Positions 1 through 8,494 of a stretch of 8,494 nucleotides of DNA are shown here, in pieces. The notes under the pieces were generated by a model. It was not told the origin of the DNA and made no database searches. It saw only the letters and a program-made list of their open reading frames with translations. Within the stretch, counting starts at the first letter, position 1; each line of letters starts with the position of its first letter. The position numbers and the translations under genes are program-made. The stretch lies in assembly GCA_008534395.1 (NCBI GenBank), contig SHMQ01000041.1:1-8494 (forward strand), in the 5' to 3' direction. The DNA is from Candidatus Acidulodesulfobacterium acidiphilum. Lineage in GTDB: Bacteria; SZUA-79; Acidulodesulfobacterales; Acidulodesulfobacteraceae.

Positions 1-76
1 CAGCAGAATGTAAATAGAAAAGATAGAAGTTAAATAAATTATAATGTTGAGTATGGGATCACGACCGAAGGGAGTC

Positions 77-94
77 ATCCTCCCGCCCCAGCCA
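77..94 (+). pseudogene. tRNA-Gln 3'-end fragment (copy 1)
   Basis: Read backwards from 94, the sequence gives CCA (92–94), discriminator G (91), a 7-nt acceptor 3' strand CGCCCCA (84–90), a T-stem 3' strand CCTCC (79–83) and AT (77–78), the last two T-loop bases. CGCCCCA-G-CCA is the usual end of bacterial tRNA-Gln, which starts TGGGGCG. The expected GGAGG-TTCG half of the T-arm is absent. In its place is CCGAAGGGAGTC (65–76). This is therefore only the last quarter of a tRNA and cannot fold as one. Bacterial tRNA-Gln commonly sits just upstream of prs in deltaproteobacterial genomes, which fits this position. Confidence 0.7.
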
Positions 95-168
95 GCAGAA
101 TGTAAATAGAAAAGATAGAAGTTAAATAAATTATAATGTTGAGTATGGGATCACGACCGAAGGGAGTC

Positions 169-186
169 ATCCTCCCGCCCCAGCCA
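169..186 (+). pseudogene. tRNA-Gln 3'-end fragment (copy 2)
   Basis: This is identical to the fragment 92 bp upstream: T-stem half 171–175, acceptor half 176–182, discriminator 183 and CCA 184–186. The prs start codon follows 38 nt after the CCA, as expected if an ancestral tRNA-Gln was co-transcribed with prs. Confidence 0.7.
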
Positions 187-224
187 GCAGAATGTAAATA
201 GAAAAGATAGAAGTTAAATTAAAA
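185..224 (+). promoter_or_regulatory. prs leader, mostly made of the partial third repeat
   Basis: Bases 185–219 are repeat sequence and 220–224 are unique. The only Shine-Dalgarno-like stretch is AGAAG at 209–213, eleven bases before the ATG at 225, and it lies inside the repeat. Any transcript entering prs from upstream must cross the repeat array. The TATAAT at 132–137 could be a -10 element, but no good -35 lies at the right distance. Confidence 0.4.
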
Positions 225-1172
225 ATGACAAATAAACTAAGATTATTTTCCGGAAATTCAAACAAGGAACTTGCCGAAAAAATGGCTGCTTATCTGAGTA
301 TGTCTCTTGGAGATGCGGAAGTTTATAAATTCAGCGACGGCGAAACTTTTATAAATATCAACGAAAACGTAAGAGGGTGCGATATTTTTCTTGTGCAGTC
401 CACGTCAAATCCGGTTGACAGAAATTTGATGGAATTGCTGATTATGATCGACGCTATGAAAAGAGCTTCGGCATATAGGATAACCGCCGTGGTTCCTTAT
501 TACGGTTATGCAAGACAGGATAGAAAAACTGCTTCAAGGGTTCCAATTACCGCAAAATTAGTAGCCGATATTATAACGACCGCAGGGGCGAACAGGGTTT
601 TATCTATGGATCTGCACGCAGGACAGATACAGGGATTTTTTAATATTCCAGTCGACCATTTGTATGCGGCGCCAGTTCTTCTGGATTATATAAAGACCAA
701 GAATTACGATTCTTCGGATATAGTTGTAGTTTCTCCTGATGCCGGAGCCGTCGAAAGGGCAAGATCTTTTGCTAAACATTTGGGGGCAAATCTAGCCATA
801 ATCGATAAAAGGAGAATAAAGGCAAACGTTGCCGAAATAATGAATGTCATAGGAGACGTAAAAAATAAAACTGCAATTATGCTGGACGATATGATCGATA
901 CTGCCGGCACTATAGCGCAAGGCGCCTCGGCTTTAGCCGACAACGGCGCAAAAGAAATAATCGCGATGGCTACCCACGGCGTTTTATCAGGCAGCGCCGT
1001 AGAAAAGATAAATAATTCTCCCATAAAAGAACTTATAATAACGGATACTATAGACCAAAAACATAGAAACGATTTATCCGGCAAATTTAAAATATTAAGT
1101 ACGGCTAATATTCTAGGGGAAGCGGTTAAGAGGATTCATGAAGAAGATTCTGTAAGCTCGTTGTTTATATAA
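225..1172 (+). CDS. prs: ribose-phosphate pyrophosphokinase (PRPP synthetase)
   Basis: The enzyme transfers pyrophosphate from ATP to ribose 5-phosphate to make PRPP, the cytosolic precursor of purines, pyrimidines, NAD, histidine and tryptophan. The 315-residue length is typical of bacterial class I Prs. Visible hallmarks are the ATP-site motif ARQDRK (96–101), the family signature around [11 protein letters not shown] (129–139), [10 protein letters not shown] (170–179) and the ribose-phosphate/PRPP loop DDMIDTAGT (221–229). The C-terminus SVSSLFI is the usual conserved tail. The N-terminus (LRLFSGNSN) aligns with the family from the first β-strand, which supports the ATG at 225. The leader sits in tandem repeat sequence with only a weak ribosome binding site. 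The gene is first in a + strand run with rplY, pth and ychF, and a 39-nt gap precedes rplY. No truncation is seen. Confidence 0.97.
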
Positions 1173-1197
1173 ATAATAAAAAAAATAACTTATCGTA

Positions 1198-1214
1198 AAA
1201 GGAGATTTTAATTG
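1198..1214 (+). promoter_or_regulatory. strong RBS fixing a TTG start for rplY
   Basis: AAAGGAG at 1198–1204 lies seven bases before TTG at 1212–1214. No in-frame ATG is available near the conserved bL25 N-terminus. The Shine-Dalgarno match is the best in the upstream operon, so the TTG start is well supported. Confidence 0.8.
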
Positions 1215-1868
1215 GACATCATTAATTTAAATATTGAAATCAGGAAAAAAGAAAACAATCTTAAAGCATTGAGAAAAAACGGTTTGATACCGGCGGTACT
1301 GTACGGAAAAAAAACAGGATCGCATATCATACTCATTAACTACAAAGAATTTCTTAAGGCTTTTGCAAAACATTCTATATCTTCGTTCATTAACATATTG
1401 AGCAACGAAGCCGGCGTTAACGGTAAAATGGCCGTCATAAAAGAAATTCAGAAGGATCCCGTAACCGACGGCATCATTCATGTCGATTTACATGAAATAT
1501 CCATGGATGAAAAAATAGAAATAGAAGCCGTTATTCATTTTAATGGAAAGCCCGAAGGAGTTAAACTCGGAGGTATTCTTGAACCGCTAATGAGACATAT
1601 AGCCATAAAAGGTTATCCAAAAGATATTATAGACACGGTAAATATCGATGTTTCTGGTCTCAACATAGGCGATATTATCCATGTCGGGGATTTAAATTTG
1701 GGCGACAAAATTGAAATTATAACCGAAAAAGATGCGGCTATCGTTACGGTTGCAGAACCTACGGTTGAAGAAGTTTCCGCTTCGGCAGAAGTTGTTGAAA
1801 GCGAAACTGCGGCGCAGGCGGCGGCTACTTCGGCGGCATCGACTCAGCAAGATTCTAAAAAGTCTTAA
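1212..1868 (+). CDS. rplY: 50S ribosomal protein bL25, CTC/TL5 form
   Basis: bL25 binds 5S rRNA in the large ribosomal subunit, and the longer CTC form is also known as a general stress protein. The protein has 218 residues, roughly twice the short E. coli L25, as expected for the two-domain form. Residues 1–93 are the N-terminal 5S-binding barrel, with RKNGLIPAVLYGKK (21–34) and KEIQKDPVTDGIIHVDLHEI (77–96). Residues from about 100 to 183 form the C-terminal TL5 domain, with GKPEGVKLGGILE (112–124). The last 35 residues are an Ala/Glu/Ser-rich tail ending in SKKS, which is probably disordered. Translation starts at TTG. It lies between prs and pth with a 21-nt gap to pth, the common deltaproteobacterial order. 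Confidence 0.95.
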   Translation: MDIINLNIEIRKKENNLKALRKNGLIPAVLYGKKTGSHIILINYKEFLKAFAKHSISSFINILSNEAGVNGKMAVIKEIQKDPVTDGIIHVDLHEISMDEKIEIEAVIHFNGKPEGVKLGGILEPLMRHIAIKGYPKDIIDTVNIDVSGLNIGDIIHVGDLNLGDKIEIITEKDAAIVTVAEPTVEEVSASAEVVESETAAQAAATSAASTQQDSKKS

Positions 1869-1889
1869 AAGTTTTATAATAATAAAAAG

Positions 1890-2495
1890 ATGCCGGAAAA
1901 TATATTTATTTTTGGACTTGGGAATCAGGGCCGCGAGTATCAATTTTCAAGGCACAATTTTGGATTTACGGCGGTAGATTTTTTTTCTGCAGAAAATAAT
2001 TTCCCCGGTTTTATTAATAAAAAAAATTATCTAATTTCCGAGAAAATTATTTCCGAAAAAAAAGTTTTTTTGATAAAACCGCTTACATTTATGAATTTAA
2101 GCGGAAAAGCCGTAAAAGAAGTTTTAAACAAAAACGGCGTTTTTAAATTACCTGAAAATTCCGATGCTCAAGATTCAAATATAATATTGATTCACGATGA
2201 TCTGGATCTTGCCTTCGGAACTTACAAGATAAAGCTCGGCGGCAGCGGAGGATCGCATAACGGCGTTAATTCGGTTATAAATTCACTGCAAAGCAAAAAT
2301 TTTATCCGGCTGAAACTGGGCATTAATTCGTTGGAAAGATTTAAATTCGGCAGCGGAGCGGATTATGTTCTGGCTAATTTTTCTAAGGAAGAGCAAAAAG
2401 TATTGCCTGAAATAATTCAAACGATAAACGAAATTTTACTGTCTTTTATAGATTGCGGTCTTGTTAAGACTATGAATCTTTATAATCATAAATAA
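1890..2495 (+). CDS. pth: peptidyl-tRNA hydrolase
   Basis: Pth cleaves the ester bond of peptidyl-tRNAs that drop off ribosomes, recycling tRNA in the cytosol. The 201-residue length is normal. The catalytic histidine is His22 in FSRHNFGF. Other family signatures are KPLTFMNLSG (63–72) with the substrate-binding Asn69, IHDDLDL (101–107) with the active-site Asp, and GGSGGSHNGVNSV (117–129) with the second conserved Asn. One deviation stands out: the near-invariant GLGNPG reads GLGNQG (9–14), with Gln in place of Pro. All catalytic residues are present, so I expect an active enzyme. The ATG at 1890 has only an A-rich upstream sequence and no clear Shine-Dalgarno. It lies 13 nt before ychF and is probably co-transcribed from prs. 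Confidence 0.95.
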   Translation: MPENIFIFGLGNQGREYQFSRHNFGFTAVDFFSAENNFPGFINKKNYLISEKIISEKKVFLIKPLTFMNLSGKAVKEVLNKNGVFKLPENSDAQDSNIILIHDDLDLAFGTYKIKLGGSGGSHNGVNSVINSLQSKNFIRLKLGINSLERFKFGSGADYVLANFSKEEQKVLPEIIQTINEILLSFIDCGLVKTMNLYNHK

Positions 2496-2508
2496 CTAAA
2501 AATATATT

Positions 2509-3609
2509 ATGGGACTTAAATGCGGTATAGTCGGTCTTCCAAATGTCGGTAAATCGACTATATTTAACGCTATTACCGCCGGAGGCGCTGAGGCGAGCAA
2601 CTATCCGTTTTGCACGATAGAACCTAACATAGGCATAAAACCAGTAAAAGATAGCAGATTAGAAAAACTGCGCGATATATTTAATCCGGAAAAATTTACC
2701 CCTACATACGTCGAATTTGTAGATATTGCAGGATTAGTAAAAGGAGCATCGTCGGGCGAAGGTCTTGGAAATAAATTTTTATCCCACATAAGAAACGTCG
2801 ATTTAATTATTCAGGTAATAAGGGTTTTTAAAGAAAGCACGGTAGTTCATGTAGAGGGAGGAGTAAATCCGGCAAGAGACCTCGATATTATAAATACGGA
2901 GCTCGCTCTTAGCGATATAGAAATTCTTTCCAAGCATATGCAAAAGCTTGAAAAAATAGCAAGAAGCGGAGATAAAACGGCCGGTTCCAATCTTGATTTT
3001 TTAAAAAAAATTAACGATAAACTTTCCGAATCCGGCTATATCGATATCGCCGGATTAGACGGCGACGAGAAAATTTTACTGAAATCCCTCGGCATAATAT
3101 CCGCAAAACCATCTTTATACGTTCTCAACGTAGACGAGGATATGCTTGCCCATGATTTTTTAAATAAAGATATAGAAGATATTATGAATATAGCAAAGCC
3201 CAAAAATATACCGGTTATAAGGTTATGCGCAAAATTAGAAGAAGAGCTTGCTTCTTTAAAAGAAGAAGACAGGCAGATTTTTCTTAAAGATTACGGCATA
3301 GAATCTTCCGCCTTAGATACCGTTGCTTCGGTCAGTTTTAAACTTCTCGGTTTAATCTCATTTTTTACCGCAGGCAAGCAGGAAGTAAGGGCGTGGGAAA
3401 TAAAAAACGGGTGGAAAGCGCCGCAGGCTGCGGGAACAATTCACACCGATTTTGAAAAAGGTTTTATAAGAGCCGAAGTTATTTCTTACGAAGATTTTAT
3501 CAAAGCAGGTTCTGAAGCAAATGCTGCAAAAATGGGACTTTTAAGGCTTGAAGGGAAAGACTATGTCGTTAAAGACGGCGATATAATGCATTTTAGATTT
3601 AACGTATGA
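2509..3609 (+). CDS. ychF: redox-regulated ribosome-binding ATPase/GTPase YchF (OLA1 family)
   Basis: YchF is a universally conserved TRAFAC-class P-loop NTPase of the Obg group that hydrolyses ATP better than GTP and associates with ribosomes. The 366 residues match the family length. The P-loop is GLPNVGKST (9–17), the switch region is NYPFCTIEPN (31–40), and the G3 motif is DIAGLVKGASSGEGLGNKF (72–90). The atypical G4 motif is NVDE (207–210), which replaces the NKxD of true GTPases and fits the known loss of guanine specificity. A TGS domain fills about 283–366, with TAGKQEVRAWEI, GTIHTDFEKGFIRAEV and the terminal VKDGDIMHFRFNV. It is the last gene of the prs operon, followed by a hairpin four bases after the stop. 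Confidence 0.97.
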   Translation: MGLKCGIVGLPNVGKSTIFNAITAGGAEASNYPFCTIEPNIGIKPVKDSRLEKLRDIFNPEKFTPTYVEFVDIAGLVKGASSGEGLGNKFLSHIRNVDLIIQVIRVFKESTVVHVEGGVNPARDLDIINTELALSDIEILSKHMQKLEKIARSGDKTAGSNLDFLKKINDKLSESGYIDIAGLDGDEKILLKSLGIISAKPSLYVLNVDEDMLAHDFLNKDIEDIMNIAKPKNIPVIRLCAKLEEELASLKEEDRQIFLKDYGIESSALDTVASVSFKLLGLISFFTAGKQEVRAWEIKNGWKAPQAAGTIHTDFEKGFIRAEVISYEDFIKAGSEANAAKMGLLRLEGKDYVVKDGDIMHFRFNV

Positions 3610-3613
3610 TTTG

Positions 3614-3648
3614 CGGCAGTGTCGGAGTTGAATTCCGCACTGCCGTTT
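3614..3648. terminator. hairpin terminator between convergent ychF and marC
   Basis: CGGCAGTG (3614–3621) pairs with CACTGCCG (3638–3645). After a single unpaired T, CGGA (3623–3626) pairs with TCCG (3634–3637), leaving a 7-nt loop. A short TTT follows on the + strand and a weak CAAAT on the - strand. Its place between two convergent stop codons supports a bidirectional terminator, though both U tracts are short. Confidence 0.75.
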
Positions 3649-4279
3649 AAGAAGAATGCAGACTCTTCATGTAAGTGATTATGGTGTTTATTACCCCTAC
3701 CCTTATCATCATTACCGCGTATGCGGCAAGGAGAAGCGCTGCAAGTTTTCCTGCGGCGTTTGAACCGTTTTTTCCGAGATATCTTAAAAAAAGCCTTGTG
3801 TTTTTTAAAACGACGTAAACAATTAAAAGGTTTATTATAAAAGCAATAGTTACTATTATATATCCATATATTCCGGTAATTATTAGCAGCGTAGTTAAAA
3901 CTCCGGGACCTACTATTAAAGGTACGCCTATAGGAACTACTCCCAAATCCGCTTTGTCTGCAGACGAATAAAGTTTGCGTTTTTCCGCAAGAAGATTGTT
4001 TATGGATATTATAAACAGAAGAACTCCTCCTGCCATTTCAAAATCGTATATAGAAATTCCCATAACCGCAAAAAGAGATTTGCCAAGCAGAAGAAAGCCT
4101 ATTCCTACGCTGAAAGCGGTTATTAATGAATTTTTTCTAATCTTTTTTTCTTCGTCTGCTTCAGTATCTTTAACGAAATCTAAATAAATAGGAAGAATTC
4201 CAAAAACGTCTATTGCGACGAATATGGGAATTAAAGCAAGGAAGATGTCTTTAAAAAAAATTAAAATAATATTCTGCAT
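3647..4279 (-). CDS. MarC-family integral membrane protein (UPF0056)
   Basis: This is a 210-residue, strongly hydrophobic inner-membrane protein. About six membrane segments can be drawn, at roughly 10–35, 50–72, 82–98, 114–134, 138–159 and 176–198. The MarC signatures are an early FVAIDVFGILPIYL (20–33), FEMAGGVLLFIISINNL (80–96) and VPIGVPLIVGPGVLTTLL (115–132). Length is close to E. coli MarC (221). The family was once linked to multiple antibiotic resistance, a role later not supported, and its substrate is unknown. The start ATG (4277–4279 on the complement) opens directly into the first membrane segment and has no clear Shine-Dalgarno. It is transcribed convergently with ychF and divergently from the glycosyltransferase gene. 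Confidence 0.9.
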   Translation of the reverse strand: MQNIILIFFKDIFLALIPIFVAIDVFGILPIYLDFVKDTEADEEKKIRKNSLITAFSVGIGFLLLGKSLFAVMGISIYDFEMAGGVLLFIISINNLLAEKRKLYSSADKADLGVVPIGVPLIVGPGVLTTLLIITGIYGYIIVTIAFIINLLIVYVVLKNTRLFLRYLGKNGSNAAGKLAALLLAAYAVMMIRVGVINTIITYMKSLHSS

Positions 4280-4349
4280 AAATTAAAAGTAAAATTGTTT
4301 TAAATAAGTATAATATATATAATATAGCATTATAATAACATACAATATT
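4280..4349. promoter_or_regulatory. AT-rich divergent promoter region
   Basis: This 70-nt spacer between two divergent start codons contains almost only A and T. TATAAT occurs on the + strand at 4309–4314 and 4331–4336, and on the - strand at 4329–4334. Any of these could be a -10 box, but none has a convincing -35 at 16–18 nt, so exact promoters cannot be assigned. Confidence 0.4.
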
Positions 4350-5507
4350 ATGAATAACAAAAAAAATAAATTTAATATACTTCATATAGACGCTTTTAAA
4401 AATTTCGGCGGAGCCCAAAACGACGTCGTAATTCTGCTTAAATTTTTGAAACTATACCATAGCGAAGAATTCAATATATTCGTTATTCATAATAACAACG
4501 AGAGATTAAAGGATGAATTGGATAAATGCGGCATTCAAAATTTTTCCGTAAGAATGACGAATTTTATCGATATTTTTTCTTTTTTAAAAATAAGGCGCTT
4601 TTTAAAGCGATACGATATTGACCTTATAAATTTTCATTCGTCCTTAGACCAATTTTTGGGCGGCATTGCAGCAGTTTCTATTTTTAAAAAAAAGATAATA
4701 AAAGTTTTAACGAGGCATGTTGCATACAAAGTAGACTTTTTAAAAGGATTTTTAATATACAGATTTTTAACCGACAGATTTATCGTTATATCGGATTTTA
4801 TTAAAAAAAGGCTGATTAACGACATAGGAATAGACGAAAGTTTAATCAGGGTTATTTACAGTCCAAGGATCTGCGGCGATGAAAATAAAACTGCCTCTTT
4901 TTACGAATCCGAAAAAGCCGAAATAAGAGAAGAATTCGGTATTAAACCGGACGAAAAAATGATTTCCCTCATTGGTAGATTATCGGGCGAAAAAGGGCAT
5001 GAAGTATTTATAAAAGCGGCAGAATTAATAATAAAAAAAAGACGGGATTTAAAATTCGTTATAATAGGCGAAGGAGAATTGCACGATTATATCGTGGGTT
5101 TAATTAAAGCAAAAGGACTTAAAGACTATTTCGTCATAAGCGGCTTTAAGGAAAATATCGAAAAATTTATATATGCATCCGACCTGATTACCGTTCCGTC
5201 GGGTCTTGAAGGAATGGGAAGTATTATAATAGAATCCTGCGCTTTAAAAAAAACCGTTATAGCTTCGGATGTAGGGGGAATTCCGGAGATAATTAAAAAT
5301 AACGAAACAGGGCTGTTGTTTAAGAACGGCGATTTTTTTGAACTTGCGGAAAAAATAATGTATTTAATAGATAAATATGATTTAATTGAAAATTTTGCTG
5401 TTAATTGCTATAATGAAGTCGTAAAAAAATTCGACGCTAAAGCGGTGGCGTCTCAAACTGCTGAATTTTATATTGAATTGCTAAATAGCGTAAATAGAAA
5501 GAAATAA
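4350..5507 (+). CDS. family 4 glycosyltransferase (GT-B fold)
   Basis: This is a 385-residue cytoplasmic or membrane-associated glycosyltransferase that probably transfers a sugar from a nucleotide-sugar donor to a lipid or polysaccharide acceptor. The acceptor domain begins with FGGAQNDVVILL (19–30), the GT4 N-terminal glycine motif. The donor domain starts near GRLSGEKGHEVF (209–220), followed by VIIGEGEL (237–244) and GFKENIEKFIYASDLITVPS (265–284). The EX7E motif is Glu287 to Glu295 in LEGMGSIIIES. It is followed by SDVGGIPEII (306–315) and an NGDFFELAEKI helix (326–336), all standard for GT4. There is no signal peptide and no obvious Shine-Dalgarno before the ATG. It is followed after 37 nt by the TPR-like gene. 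The donor and product cannot be told from sequence, and no other polysaccharide genes are visible nearby. Confidence 0.9.
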   Translation: MNNKKNKFNILHIDAFKNFGGAQNDVVILLKFLKLYHSEEFNIFVIHNNNERLKDELDKCGIQNFSVRMTNFIDIFSFLKIRRFLKRYDIDLINFHSSLDQFLGGIAAVSIFKKKIIKVLTRHVAYKVDFLKGFLIYRFLTDRFIVISDFIKKRLINDIGIDESLIRVIYSPRICGDENKTASFYESEKAEIREEFGIKPDEKMISLIGRLSGEKGHEVFIKAAELIIKKRRDLKFVIIGEGELHDYIVGLIKAKGLKDYFVISGFKENIEKFIYASDLITVPSGLEGMGSIIIESCALKKTVIASDVGGIPEIIKNNETGLLFKNGDFFELAEKIMYLIDKYDLIENFAVNCYNEVVKKFDAKAVASQTAEFYIELLNSVNRKK

Positions 5508-5544
5508 ATAAAAAGAAATTTTAGCATATAGATAACATTTTAAA

Positions 5545-6300
5545 ATGAGCATAAGCATAAATAAATTTTTAAAAGGTTTAGCTGTTTTTTTAATTATGCT
5601 ATTTTTAGCCTATTCAATTTTATTTTCTTTTCATATAGTGGCTTTATCAAAGAGCCGTTTAAAATTGAAATTAGTTTCATTTTTAAAATATTCCTCCGTA
5701 AAACCGGGATTTTTAAAATTTGTAGATTTTAATTTTAATACGTTGACTTCGGATTATTTCTGGACGCTTTTCGTTCAGGAGGCTTCATCCTTCAGGCTGG
5801 CAAAGGCGCATTACCCGTATATGTATAAAATTTCGTTCATAACGGTTTCTTTAAATCCTAATTTTAATTATGCTTACCAGGCGGGCGGTACGCTTCTCGG
5901 ACTGACGGGCAAACCTAAAAGAGCCATAAAACTTTTAAAGCTCGGTATGACCCATTTAAAAGGAAATTGGAATATACCGTTCCTCATATCTTTTAACTAT
6001 TTTTACAATATAGGGAATTATAAAAAAGCCGCATATTATCTTAAATATGCCGTCGATATGAAAGGCAGTCCGAAATATTTAGAATTTTTATATATTAAAC
6101 TCCTTAATAAATCCGGAAGCCTTAAAAAAACGCTAAGTTTTCTTAAAACCATGTATAAAAACAACAAAAATCCTTATATTAAGCAGATAATACAATACAG
6201 GATAGATGCCGTTAAAAACGAGATAGCGCTTAAAAAAGAGCATAAAAATTATAAAATTCCGTATTCTTTAAAACTGTTTATGCCTCAAAAAAGAGGGTGA
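5545..6300 (+). CDS. membrane-anchored TPR-like protein of an ABC exporter cluster
   Basis: This 251-residue basic protein has one N-terminal membrane segment (about 8–34) and no lipobox or clear cleavage site, so it is probably a signal anchor with the rest outside the inner membrane. The mature part looks helical and repeat-like: TSDYFWTLFVQEASS (68–82), LNPNFNYAYQAGGTLLGL (103–120), PKRAIKLLKLG (124–134) and NWNIPFLISFNYFYNIGNYKKAAYYLKYAV (141–170). The last three resemble successive TPR units. The pattern resembles a TPR-type protein I associate with ABC-2 transporter genes in deltaproteobacteria. The stop codon overlaps the RBS of the ABC ATPase gene, so translation is probably coupled. 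A role as periplasmic partner or scaffold of the transporter is inference; no catalytic motif is seen. Confidence 0.7.
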   Translation: MSISINKFLKGLAVFLIMLFLAYSILFSFHIVALSKSRLKLKLVSFLKYSSVKPGFLKFVDFNFNTLTSDYFWTLFVQEASSFRLAKAHYPYMYKISFITVSLNPNFNYAYQAGGTLLGLTGKPKRAIKLLKLGMTHLKGNWNIPFLISFNYFYNIGNYKKAAYYLKYAVDMKGSPKYLEFLYIKLLNKSGSLKKTLSFLKTMYKNNKNPYIKQIIQYRIDAVKNEIALKKEHKNYKIPYSLKLFMPQKRG

Positions 6301-6306
6301 ATTATG
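6293..6306 (+). promoter_or_regulatory. RBS of the ABC ATPase overlapping the upstream stop codon
   Basis: GAGGGTGA (6293–6300) contains the TGA stop of the TPR-like gene (6298–6300), and the ATG follows at 6304. The arrangement suggests translational coupling and supports one operon. Confidence 0.75.
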
Positions 6307-7083
6307 ATTGAAATAAAAAACGTAACGAAATATTTCAGGATAGGTTTTTTCGGAACGCGGAAAAATGCGGTTGAAGACCTTTCTTTAAACATAGACGGAG
6401 GAAAAGTCACCGGTTTTTTCGGTCCTAACGGCGCAGGCAAATCTACGACCATTAAAATGATAGTAGGGCTTATTAAGGCGTCCGGCGGAAGTATCAAAAT
6501 TAACGGATACGACTCTTCCGATTACAGAGCAAGGCTTAATTTGGGGTATCTGCCTGAAAATCCCAGTTTCCCGCGCGGATTAAAAGGCATAGAAATTATT
6601 AATTACTATTCAAAACTCTTGAATAAAAAAATAAATAAAGACGAAATTTACGATGCTTTAAAATTAGCCGGTATTTTCTATGCGAAAAATATCCATGCGC
6701 ATAAATATTCTAAGGGAATGACCCAGAGGCTGGCATTGGCGGTTTCTATCATAGGCGATCCGGAAATTTTAATATTCGACGAACCGTTGTCCGGACTAGA
6801 CCCTATAGGGCGCAAGGAGTTTAAAGATATAATATTTAAACTTAAAGAAAGAAAGAAAACTATATTTTTTTCATCGCACGTGCTTGCCGACAGTAAAGAA
6901 CTGTGCGATAGGATAGCTGTTTTAGTAAACGGCAGATTAATAAAAAACGAAAACTTAGGAAACATAGAAAAAGAAGCGGCTGCATATGCCGAAGAAAAAA
7001 AAGATGACCGTTTGAGCGGGGAATATAACACTCCCTTAGAGGTTTATCTTTACGATTTAATGCTTAAAAACAGGAAAAATTAG
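6304..7083 (+). CDS. ABC transporter ATP-binding protein (ABC-2/DrrA-CcmA type)
   Basis: This 259-residue cytoplasmic ATPase would power the membrane permease encoded next. All ABC motifs are present in order: Walker A GPNGAGKST (40–48), a Q-loop region GYLPENPSFP (81–90), signature YSKGMTQ (135–141), Walker B ILIFDE (155–160) with catalytic Glu160, D-loop SGLD (163–166) and switch His192 in SSHVLADS. The Q-loop reads LPE instead of VPQ and the signature reads YSKGM instead of LSGGQ; both are common in this subfamily, which pairs with ABC-2 permeases. The C-terminal 40 residues are acidic, basic and variable. The start is supported by the RBS just upstream. A 19-nt gap separates it from the permease gene. 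The substrate is unknown; export is likely because no binding-protein gene is present. Confidence 0.95.
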   Translation: MIEIKNVTKYFRIGFFGTRKNAVEDLSLNIDGGKVTGFFGPNGAGKSTTIKMIVGLIKASGGSIKINGYDSSDYRARLNLGYLPENPSFPRGLKGIEIINYYSKLLNKKINKDEIYDALKLAGIFYAKNIHAHKYSKGMTQRLALAVSIIGDPEILIFDEPLSGLDPIGRKEFKDIIFKLKERKKTIFFSSHVLADSKELCDRIAVLVNGRLIKNENLGNIEKEAAAYAEEKKDDRLSGEYNTPLEVYLYDLMLKNRKN

Positions 7084-7090
7084 CAAATTA

Positions 7091-7105
7091 GCGGGGTATT
7101 TAATG
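7091..7105 (+). promoter_or_regulatory. RBS of the permease gene
   Basis: GCGGGGT at 7091–7097 lies just before the ATG at 7103–7105. It is G-rich in an otherwise AT-rich spacer and supports the chosen start. Confidence 0.55.
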
Positions 7106-8035
7106 AAAAATATTTTATACGGAATAATGTATTCTTTTAAAGAAATAAAGAATTCAAAAATTTTTTATTCTTTTTTAATCTTTGCCTTAATACTTATATC
7201 GGGCAGTTATTTCGTTTCCCAGACTAGTTTCATAAACCAGGGAAGAATTATGGTGGATTTTTCTATATTTGCCATATCTATTTTCAATATTTTTATAGGA
7301 ATTTTTATCGGATCTTCCGTGGTTTACGACGATATCGAAAAGAAAAGCATTTTTCTAAGTATTACAAGGCCGGTTAAAAGAACGGAATATTTAACCGGAC
7401 GTTTTCTTGGACTTGCCGCAGCAATAATCTTTTCTACGGTCATAATGATGTTTATTTTTTATTTTGTACTGCTGATTATGCATAAATTTATAGTGCCTGT
7501 CGTGCCCAACGCCGGAGCCGTCGCTTCAGGTGCAAAGTCTGTTCATAATAGCGTTAATTTGCAAAACAGTTCCGCCGCTCATGCCGGCTCCCGCCGGCCG
7601 TTTACTTTTTATATGCTGCCCCAGCCGTTAATAATTCAGGGACTGTTTATAATAATCGAGTCGATATTTATTTCCGCCGCCGCACTGCTGTTTTCTTTAG
7701 TAACGTCAAAAGCTTTGGCATCTATTTTTGCAATTCTTGTTTTTTTTATAGGCAACGTTTCGAGCCGCATGAACGACTTGGTTAAACCGGTAAAAAAGAT
7801 TATTAAAGGCAAAATAGTAATAGTGCATCAGACTAATCATACGTTGACTTCCATAGTCCACTTTATTTATACCGTCCTGCCCAACTTTTCCATATTCAAT
7901 ATAAGTTCCGAAGCCGCATATAAACTTAATATTTCCTCAGGTATTATATTTTACCGCCTTATATACGGAATTTCTTATACTGTTTTGCTGTTTATAATAT
8001 CTTCCTTGATATTTTCAAGGAAAGATATAAGCTGA
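7103..8035 (+). CDS. ABC-2 type transporter permease
   Basis: This is a 310-residue inner-membrane protein with about six membrane segments, at roughly 21–39, 53–74, 101–131, 176–200, 203–220 and 283–305. The motif DDIEKKSIFLSITRPVKRTE (76–95) between segments two and three is the cytosolic coupling region typical of ABC-2 permeases (an E...ILSRPVSR-like pattern). The loop between segments three and four holds a polar Ala/Ser/Asn-rich stretch (about 134–167) whose DNA is more GC-rich than its surroundings, probably an extracytoplasmic insert. The protein presumably forms a homodimer with two copies of the upstream ATPase, with the TPR-like protein as possible accessory. The gene ends at TGA 8033–8035 and appears full length. 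The transported substrate cannot be inferred. Confidence 0.9.
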   Translation: MKNILYGIMYSFKEIKNSKIFYSFLIFALILISGSYFVSQTSFINQGRIMVDFSIFAISIFNIFIGIFIGSSVVYDDIEKKSIFLSITRPVKRTEYLTGRFLGLAAAIIFSTVIMMFIFYFVLLIMHKFIVPVVPNAGAVASGAKSVHNSVNLQNSSAAHAGSRRPFTFYMLPQPLIIQGLFIIIESIFISAAALLFSLVTSKALASIFAILVFFIGNVSSRMNDLVKPVKKIIKGKIVIVHQTNHTLTSIVHFIYTVLPNFSIFNISSEAAYKLNISSGIIFYRLIYGISYTVLLFIISSLIFSRKDIS

Positions 8036-8120
8036 CGGAATTATGCTTTAATCATTCAATTCTTCAATGGAACTACAAAAAACCTCCCGAACGAATATGC
8101 ATAATGTTTAAAAAAAGTGT

Positions 8121-8146
8121 GAGAAAAAGGTGACGAGAAAAAGGTG
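8121..8146 (+). repeat. 12-nt direct repeat, 14-nt period
   Basis: GAGAAAAAGGTG occurs at 8121–8132 and again at 8135–8146. The second copy overlaps the outer end of the inverted repeat that starts at 8139, so the first may be a partial duplicate of an element end. Confidence 0.7.
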
Positions 8147-8223
8147 TCGGATTTTATTTTACGCATATAAAAAGAAATAATTAACGATAAAAGATGTTGC
8201 GTAAAATTAATCTGACACCTTTT
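8139..8223. repeat. imperfect inverted repeat, REP/MITE-like
   Basis: The arm at 8139–8165 begins AAAAGGTGTCGGATT and ends TTTTACGCA. It pairs with the arm at 8198–8223, whose reverse complement begins AAAAGGTGTCAGATT and ends TTTTACGCA. The arms differ by one substitution (G/A) plus a small change in the A/T-rich middle, and the loop is 32 nt. AAAAGGTGTCAGATT-type ends are familiar to me beside IS200-like REP-associated transposase (RAYT) genes, so this may be a non-autonomous relic. No transposase gene is in the window. It could also stop transcripts leaving the permease gene. Confidence 0.7.
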
Positions 8224-8234
8224 ACTTAACGCAA

Positions 8235-8287
8235 TGGCGGAGAGAGAGGGATGAGCGTCCTTCGGACGCTAAAAGCGACGAACCCCC
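8235..8287 (-). pseudogene. tRNA-Ser 3' quarter with split T-loop (copy 1)
   Basis: On the - strand: CCA (complement of 8235–8237), discriminator G (8238), acceptor 3' strand TCTCTCC (8239–8245), T-stem 3' strand CCCTC (8246–8250) and loop end AT (8251–8252). The matching T-stem 5' strand and loop start, GGGGGTTCG, is present at 8279–8287. It is separated from the loop end by a 26-nt insert (8253–8278). GGGGG and CCCTC still pair, with one G·U. The end CTCTCTCCGCCA fits bacterial tRNA-Ser. No acceptor 5' strand, D-arm or anticodon arm is found, so this is a fragment. Confidence 0.65.
8254..8270. other. 7-bp hairpin inside the split T-loop
   Basis: AGCGTCC (8254–8260) pairs with GGACGCT (8264–8270) around TTC. 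A competing hairpin, CGCT (8267–8270) with AGCG (8274–8277), uses the same bases, so the two cannot form together. The structure recurs at 8388–8404 in the second copy. Confidence 0.7.
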
Positions 8288-8314
8288 TAACGCGCTACGC
8301 GCTCCGGGTGTTCG
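8279..8314. other. T-arm-like inverted repeat enclosing a GCGC hairpin
   Basis: CGAACCCCC (8279–8287) is the inverted complement of GGGTGTTCG (8306–8314) at eight of nine positions. Between them GCGC (8292–8295) and GCGC (8299–8302) form a small hairpin. The right arm runs into TTCGAATCC (8311–8319) on the + strand, a perfect T-loop consensus without a matching T-stem. The unit recurs at 8413–8448. Confidence 0.7.
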
Positions 8315-8368
8315 AATCCTATGGCCTGTATTGAATTAAATGACTGTATAAGAAATAGCATTTATTTA

Positions 8369-8421
8369 TGGCGGAGAGAGAGGGATGAGCGTCCTTCGGA
8401 CGCTAAAAGCGACGAACCCCC
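8369..8421 (-). pseudogene. tRNA-Ser 3' quarter with split T-loop (copy 2)
   Basis: This is the same as copy one, 134 bp downstream: CCA complement 8369–8371, acceptor half 8373–8379, T-stem halves 8380–8384 and 8417–8421, and insert 8387–8412. No base differs within this segment. Confidence 0.65.
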
Positions 8422-8494
8422 TAACGCGCTACGCGCTCCGGGTGTTCGAATCCTATGGCATGTATTGAATTAAATGACTGTATAAGAAATAGCA

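Follow-up and report, generated by a model that had tools for sequence, protein, structure and literature searches.

RtT-like units behind intact tRNA genes of Candidatus Acidulodesulfobacterium acidiphilum and its relatives: candidate tail-swap elements of tRNA precursors

How do the 3' ends of two different tRNAs come to be repeated at the two ends of a contig on which no tRNA gene is found? The question is raised by contig C41 (SHMQ01000041.1) of Candidatus Acidulodesulfobacterium acidiphilum (family Acidulodesulfobacteraceae), which was analysed in its entirety (8,494 nt, hereafter the window) and belongs to a genome of 2.09 Mb in 70 contigs. No tRNA genes were called within the window by ARAGORN, and an Rfam search of it at the gathering threshold gave no match. 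On the + strand, its left end carries a 92-nt tandem unit in two 100% identical copies (1-92 and 93-184), with tails ATCCTCCCGCCCCAGCCA (77-94 and 169-186) that are each directly preceded by CCGAAGGGAGTC. On the - strand, its right end carries two copies of a 134-nt unit, with tails ATCCCTCTCTCTCCGCCA (8235-8252 and 8369-8386, + coordinates) that are each directly preceded by CCGAAGGACGCTC. Both ends lie inside tandem arrays that point inward, each begun by an intact tRNA gene on a neighbouring contig. At the end of C40, tRNA-Gln(TTG) (C40:7628-7702) is immediately followed by the 92-nt unit; at the end of C49, tRNA-Ser(TGA) (L007:1412-1500) is followed by the 134-nt unit. An earlier note on this DNA had supposed that the elements replace the remainder of each tRNA, or interrupt or carry away its 3' quarter; the tRNAs are in fact intact and each tail is an extra copy. 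A permuted, split or intron-containing tRNA was ruled out as the genes are intact and unpermuted, and an assembly artefact at contig ends was ruled out by arrays of up to four units inside contigs of the seven-contig genome G019. Units also stand behind intact tRNAs inside contigs of other relatives. Judged by architecture, and not by sequence family, they are of the RtT kind described from Escherichia coli tyrT.

Every unit is made up of a spacer of ~50 nt that is not conserved, then a conserved core, and lastly 18 nt copied from the 3' end of its own tRNA; units measure 90-194 nt. The copy always begins at T-loop base 59 (ATCC..., or CTCC... for the tRNA-Ser(GGA) with T-loop TTCGACT). The core of class A units (Gln, Tyr, Asn) reads GATCACGACC-GAA-GGGAGTC, or is a variant of this with longer hairpins. 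Class B units (Ser) have, in order, an antisense T-arm, an apical hairpin (P2b), the 5' half of a direct T-arm copy, a hairpin (P3) and the tail, such that the T-loop of the direct copy is interrupted by a hairpin. The inverted T-arm and the interrupted direct copy are present in the Ser units and vestigial in the Gln, Tyr and Asn units. CCGAAGG, which the earlier note read as a common junction sequence and a sign of kinship, chiefly forms a hairpin tip in units of either class, and relatives have CCTTAAGG, CCAAAGG, CCGCAGG or TCAAAGA in its place. Since the tip varies in this way, its occurrence in the left and right repeats is by itself no proof of common descent, and that part of the argument was largely abandoned. 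At L204, L205, L051, L148 and L149, similar long palindromes (TTATAAAAGCC..GGCTTTTATG and TTTACAAAAGC..GCTTTTGTG) lengthen the hairpins of both classes, giving the impression that another small palindromic element inserts at hairpin tips.

Compensatory changes support a predicted Y-shaped fold of the class B core. In the covariation test 93.3% of cells were paired, and double-change cells numbered 37 compared with 13.8 in shuffles (0/500 as high); pairing fell to about 40% when the pairing partner was slid by one column. P2b occurs as GCGC/GCGC, GGGC/GCCC, GCCC/GGGC or GCCAC/GTGGC. P3 occurs as AGCGTCC/GGACGCT, AACTTTTC/GAAAAGTT or AACTTTCC/GGAAAGTT, and its covariation count is conservative because MAFFT misaligns P3 between the AGCGTCC and AACTTTC types.

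Intact tRNA genes followed by 1-4 units were found at eight isotypes, namely Gln(TTG, CTG), Tyr, Asn and Ser(TGA, CGA, GCT, GGA). In G019, where all tRNAs were surveyed, and G018, where nearly all were, tail repeats occurred only at Gln(TTG), Tyr, Asn and Ser; Ser(GGA) and Gln(CTG) were added from loci beyond this survey. The earlier note had argued from two tRNAs that one shared T-loop junction was not chance and marked a cross-isotype family of small elements, and the further isotypes in relatives confirm both points. The class A core pattern was detected in 19/30 family genomes and 1/356 other genomes; this one outside match (G060) had no tRNA nearby and looks like chance. The class B core model (R1) matched 21/30 family genomes, and its two outside matches (G173, G286) were ordinary tRNA-Ser genes on the opposite strand. 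The window's own genome has further class B cores at tRNA-Ser(GCT) (C22), on C16, with a downstream gene that matches the Ser(CGA) locus in G008, and on C64, which is Ser(GGA)-like. A generic pattern was also run over 386 genomes and gave true matches only in G019, G024 and G061, the remaining matches being taken as backward-read ordinary tRNAs or neighbouring tRNAs without checking each. In G061, an unrelated genome, the unit behind tRNA-Ser(TGA) has a different tail, that of this tRNA itself.

Across these loci the tails are held far more closely than their surroundings. Terminal unit tails differed from their tRNA at 14 of 828 positions (1.7%), compared with ~30% over the next 20 nt; G061 and one false pair (adjacent Leu and Phe genes) are part of this set. 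Spacers keep their length and lose their sequence: from CCA to core, class A spacers measured 52-56 nt in 25/25 with a median ungapped identity of 35%, and class B spacers were mostly 49-59 nt. Antisense arms tend to follow their own tRNA. GCT units have GGATTCGAACCCTCG and most TGA and CGA units have GAACNCCCG. Those GGA units whose tRNA has the rare T-loop TTCGACT have GGAGTCGAACCCTCGATAG, a 19-nt perfect tRNA complement reaching into the variable arm, and their tails begin CTCCC. With these GGA units left out, the mean antisense score against the own tRNA was 16.1, compared with 14.6 when tRNAs were permuted (permutation maximum 15.6, n = 300). At L271 (G006:C25) a tRNA-Ser(TGA) without an encoded CCA ends GCCGG; its unit tail has the same GCCGG, so that CCA loss is common to tRNA and tail.

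By their position, the units are probably part of the primary transcript of the tRNA. tRNA and unit were folded jointly for class B and for E. coli K-12 tyrT-tyrV, read as a control, where RttR units lie behind intact tRNA-Tyr genes. In both, the antisense arm paired with the real T-arm and tail, the 5' acceptor strand paired with the spare tail over at least 5 bp (34/36 folds), and the direct T-arm copy was able to rebuild the T-stem. The mean joint-fold gain for class B was -12.1 kcal/mol, compared with -1.4 for 100 tRNAs without units and -4.7 when the antisense arm was shuffled. We propose that these pairings would also form on the pre-tRNA, so that the precursor might switch between the normal tRNA and a strand-swapped form; such a switch would adjust the maturation of the tRNA and set free a structured RNA ending in CCA. 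The T-loop hairpin would make the direct copy a poorer antisense partner than the real tRNA, which would fit a design for strand exchange. The units themselves may arise by tail-templated duplication and multiply by unequal recombination, their likeness to their own tRNA being kept by concerted evolution, selection or both. We give an even chance to the reading that RtT-like units are cis-acting pre-tRNA tail-swap elements, spread by tail duplication and homogenised by recombination. That such a switch is at work in widely separated bacteria, including at E. coli tyrT, we suggest only tentatively. If true, tRNA supply could be set by RNA strand exchange: the antisense arm would draw away the original T-arm and tail, and a spare T-arm, acceptor strand and CCA would rebuild the tRNA end. 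The anatomy of the unit offers a concrete, testable mechanism (3'-end strand exchange) that would explain the exact spare tail on every unit.

Several observations weigh against a tail swap. Class A units showed weaker exchange (15/20), a gain of only -4.5 kcal/mol and no good antisense arm, and the window's TGA unit, when folded by itself, was barely better than its shuffles (z -1.0). A duplicated tail with an inverted copy yields part of the folding gain by itself. The joint folds are thermodynamic predictions, with modified bases, RNase P/E, proteins and co-transcriptional order outside the model, and during transcription the normal tRNA would be the first to fold. Many loci have no unit, and G006 and G003 contain decayed ones, so that units are not essential. 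Finally, CGA-type arms occur at some TGA loci, so tracking of the own tRNA is not strict and units evidently also move between Ser loci.

Such movement would equally be expected of selfish DNA, namely a non-autonomous mini-element with a folded core that a trans-acting recombinase, transposase or reverse transcriptase recognises as DNA, with a tail that is a target duplication and with an RNA that has no host function. Comparison with unoccupied loci favours this view. At Ser(GCT), Ser(CGA) and Asn, the sequence 3' of the last unit tail aligns directly after the unoccupied tRNA (scores of 49.5 vs shuffles of at most 14.5, 34.0 vs 13.5 and 11.5 vs 9.0, respectively), and for Ser(GCT) and Asn the spacer does not align with the unoccupied locus; the Tyr comparison gave no information. 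The duplication reaches a variable 0-35 nt beyond CCA. In G018, the Gln and Tyr units have a homologous spacer (score 23, shuffled maximum 11.5), each with the tail of its own tRNA. The mobile family postulated in the earlier note is borne out to the extent that units were gained, lost and multiplied; its mobilisation by an integrase acting in trans is not. Crossover in the T-loop would give tRNA-Tyr a Gln tail and would damage the target tRNA where isotypes differ, whereas units keep their own tails. No recombinase was seen among the open reading frames (ORFs) of the window, and no genome-wide integrase search was made. Neither a Y1 transposase nor a reverse transcriptase was consistently present, and both were rejected as required mobilisers: the Y1_Tnp domain was absent from the unit-bearing genomes G018, G019, G024 and G008, and RVT_1 (reverse transcriptase) from G019, G002, G009 and G022, so that no tested trans-acting gene is common to all and unit-rich G019 has neither. 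BLAST of the window's own genome returned no unit copies outside tRNA loci, and tails stay exact while the adjoining duplicated sequence decays. We regard selfish DNA as somewhat unlikely.

Alternatively, the units could be genes for a small RNA that acts in trans, as has been suggested for E. coli rtT, the tail being only its processed 3' end. PMC4986893, citing Bosl and Kersten 1991, describes rtT RNA as a product freed from the tyrT transcript and connects it with amino-acid limitation, and a CGA-type unit by itself has a stable fold (z -5.4 vs shuffles), both of which speak for such an RNA. There is no common seed, however, as spacers are unconserved and antisense arms follow their own tRNA. 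The Rfam RtT model, at a threshold of at least 45 bits, had no match in the window, in L203, L205 and L165, or in the whole of G000, G019 and G061, although it scored 133-138 bits on the E. coli control. This explanation appears unlikely. Weak sub-threshold Rfam matches to the Xanthomonas small RNA sX4 span the tRNA and unit start at L165 (1353-1508) and L240 (1671-1775).

Neutral local duplication, in which replication slippage or template switching at tRNA palindromes yields inverted and direct copies whose likeness is maintained by unequal crossing-over, with neither function nor mobility, would account for units of local origin from their own tRNA, for the similarity within a locus of the flanks after first and last tails, and for the variable copy number. 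It sits poorly with a core and spacer length conserved across genera while spacer sequence is randomised, with the compensatory changes in the core, and with the same architecture in E. coli and the tail unit in G061, and we consider it improbable. At L176 (~1170-1296; G009:C23), a full-length gene resembling tRNA-Ser(CGA) stands upstream of the intact tRNA-Ser(CGA). It ends CCG, its T-loop has a 20-nt insert (GGGGGTTCG-GACGCAGTCCAGCAAAGCTC-ATCCC) and its variable arm has a similar one; this gene may be a pseudogene or represent a precursor of the units.

That the block between the arrays is a genomic island between two att sites can be dismissed as next to impossible: two inward-pointing arrays do flank 8 kb in the window, but the block holds what we take to be prs, a ribosomal L25-like protein gene, pth and a ychF-like gene, and in five relatives (G002, G005, G012, G014, G019) tRNA-Gln(TTG) and tRNA-Ser(TGA) flank a block of 8-9 kb, so this gene order is ancestral.

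The layout of both arrays is given in Table 1. Adjoining the Ser array, positions 8143-8222 form an imperfect inverted repeat (GGTGTCGGATTTTATTTTACGCA ... TGCGTAAAATTAATCTGACACC) resembling a small transposon or a palindrome of the miniature inverted-repeat transposable element type. The ORF at 3647-4279 (-), between the ychF-like gene and what looks like a glycosyltransferase gene, presumably encodes a MarC-family-like membrane protein. In practical terms, unit arrays of this sort break short-read contigs and confuse annotation.

Table 1 Features of the Gln and Ser unit arrays at the two ends of the window.
Feature	Position	Strand	Remark
Class A (Gln-type) unit spacer, 54 nt	3..56	+	No conserved sequence
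Class A core, GATCACGACC-GAA-GGGAGTC	57..76	+	Pattern match; conserved across Gln, Tyr and Asn units
tRNA-Gln(TTG) 3' end copy, T-loop base 59 to CCA	77..94	+	Identical to tail of tRNA at C40:7628-7702
Spacer of second Gln unit	95..148	+	
Class A core of second Gln unit	149..168	+	
tRNA-Gln tail copy	169..186	+	Last of the array
Partial spacer copy after last Gln tail	187..219	+	5 nt before prs ORF (225-1172)
tRNA-Ser 3' end copy	8235..8252	-	Last in Ser array; compared with tRNA-Ser(TGA) at L007:1412-1500
Hairpin P3 (AGCGTCC-GAA-GGACGCT)	8254..8270	-	Within T-loop of direct T-arm copy
T-arm 5' half, direct copy, GGGGGTTCG	8279..8287	-	
Apical hairpin P2b (AGCGCG-TAG-CGCGTT)	8288..8303	-	
Antisense (inverted) copy of own T-arm, GGATTCGAACACCCGG	8304..8319	-	1 mismatch vs perfect tRNA-Ser(TGA) complement
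Ser unit spacer	8320..8368	-	Unconserved
tRNA-Ser tail copy of next unit	8369..8386	-	
Second Ser (class B) unit	8387..8494	-	Cut by contig end; R1 model match 8382-8456

Among known systems, permuted tRNAs of some archaea and algae have their break point in the T-loop, a position resembling the unit junction. Integrative elements that use tRNA genes as att sites, with tyrosine integrases and crossover in the T-loop, share with the units the identity from T-loop to CCA and a layout like that of tandem integrants. They differ in that the units measure 90-194 nt without an integrase gene, and in that the tail follows each target tRNA, unlike the product of a crossover. REP/BIME sequences with RAYT (Y1) transposases are likewise small, palindromic and extragenic, and E. 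coli rtT has been grouped among REP/BIME-like sequences (PMC2965389, PMC12306157). The units described here occur only behind tRNAs, however, with no dispersed copies found in the window's own genome.

The closest counterpart is E. coli rtT itself (RttR; Rfam RF00391, RtT), the architecture of which answers the view in the earlier note that no named family fits. In both systems tandem units lie behind an intact tRNA and end in its 3' tail from the T-loop, with the junction at T-loop base 58/59. The E. coli RttR unit consists, in order, of GGGGAAGG(A/G)TGAGAA... (inverted tRNA-Tyr T-arm and acceptor), a direct AAGGTTCGA, hairpins and the AATCCTTCCCCCACCACCA tail. RttR units fold as a multiloop with the tail in the closing stem and CCA free, as does the family's CGA unit, and the tail swap predicted for E. 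coli tyrTV is that of the Ser units. The E. coli unit differs in being longer (178 nt tail-to-tail in K-12), in following another tRNA and in having the tpr ORF annotated inside it. The layout of inverted T-arm, interrupted direct copy and tail, common to the Ser and E. coli units, is new here. For decades the tyrT repeats of E. coli have been known as a curiosity confined to a single operon; an rtT-like build at eight isotypes in an unrelated family, together with a tail unit at a tRNA-Ser of a third lineage, suggests a general and overlooked class of tRNA appendages.

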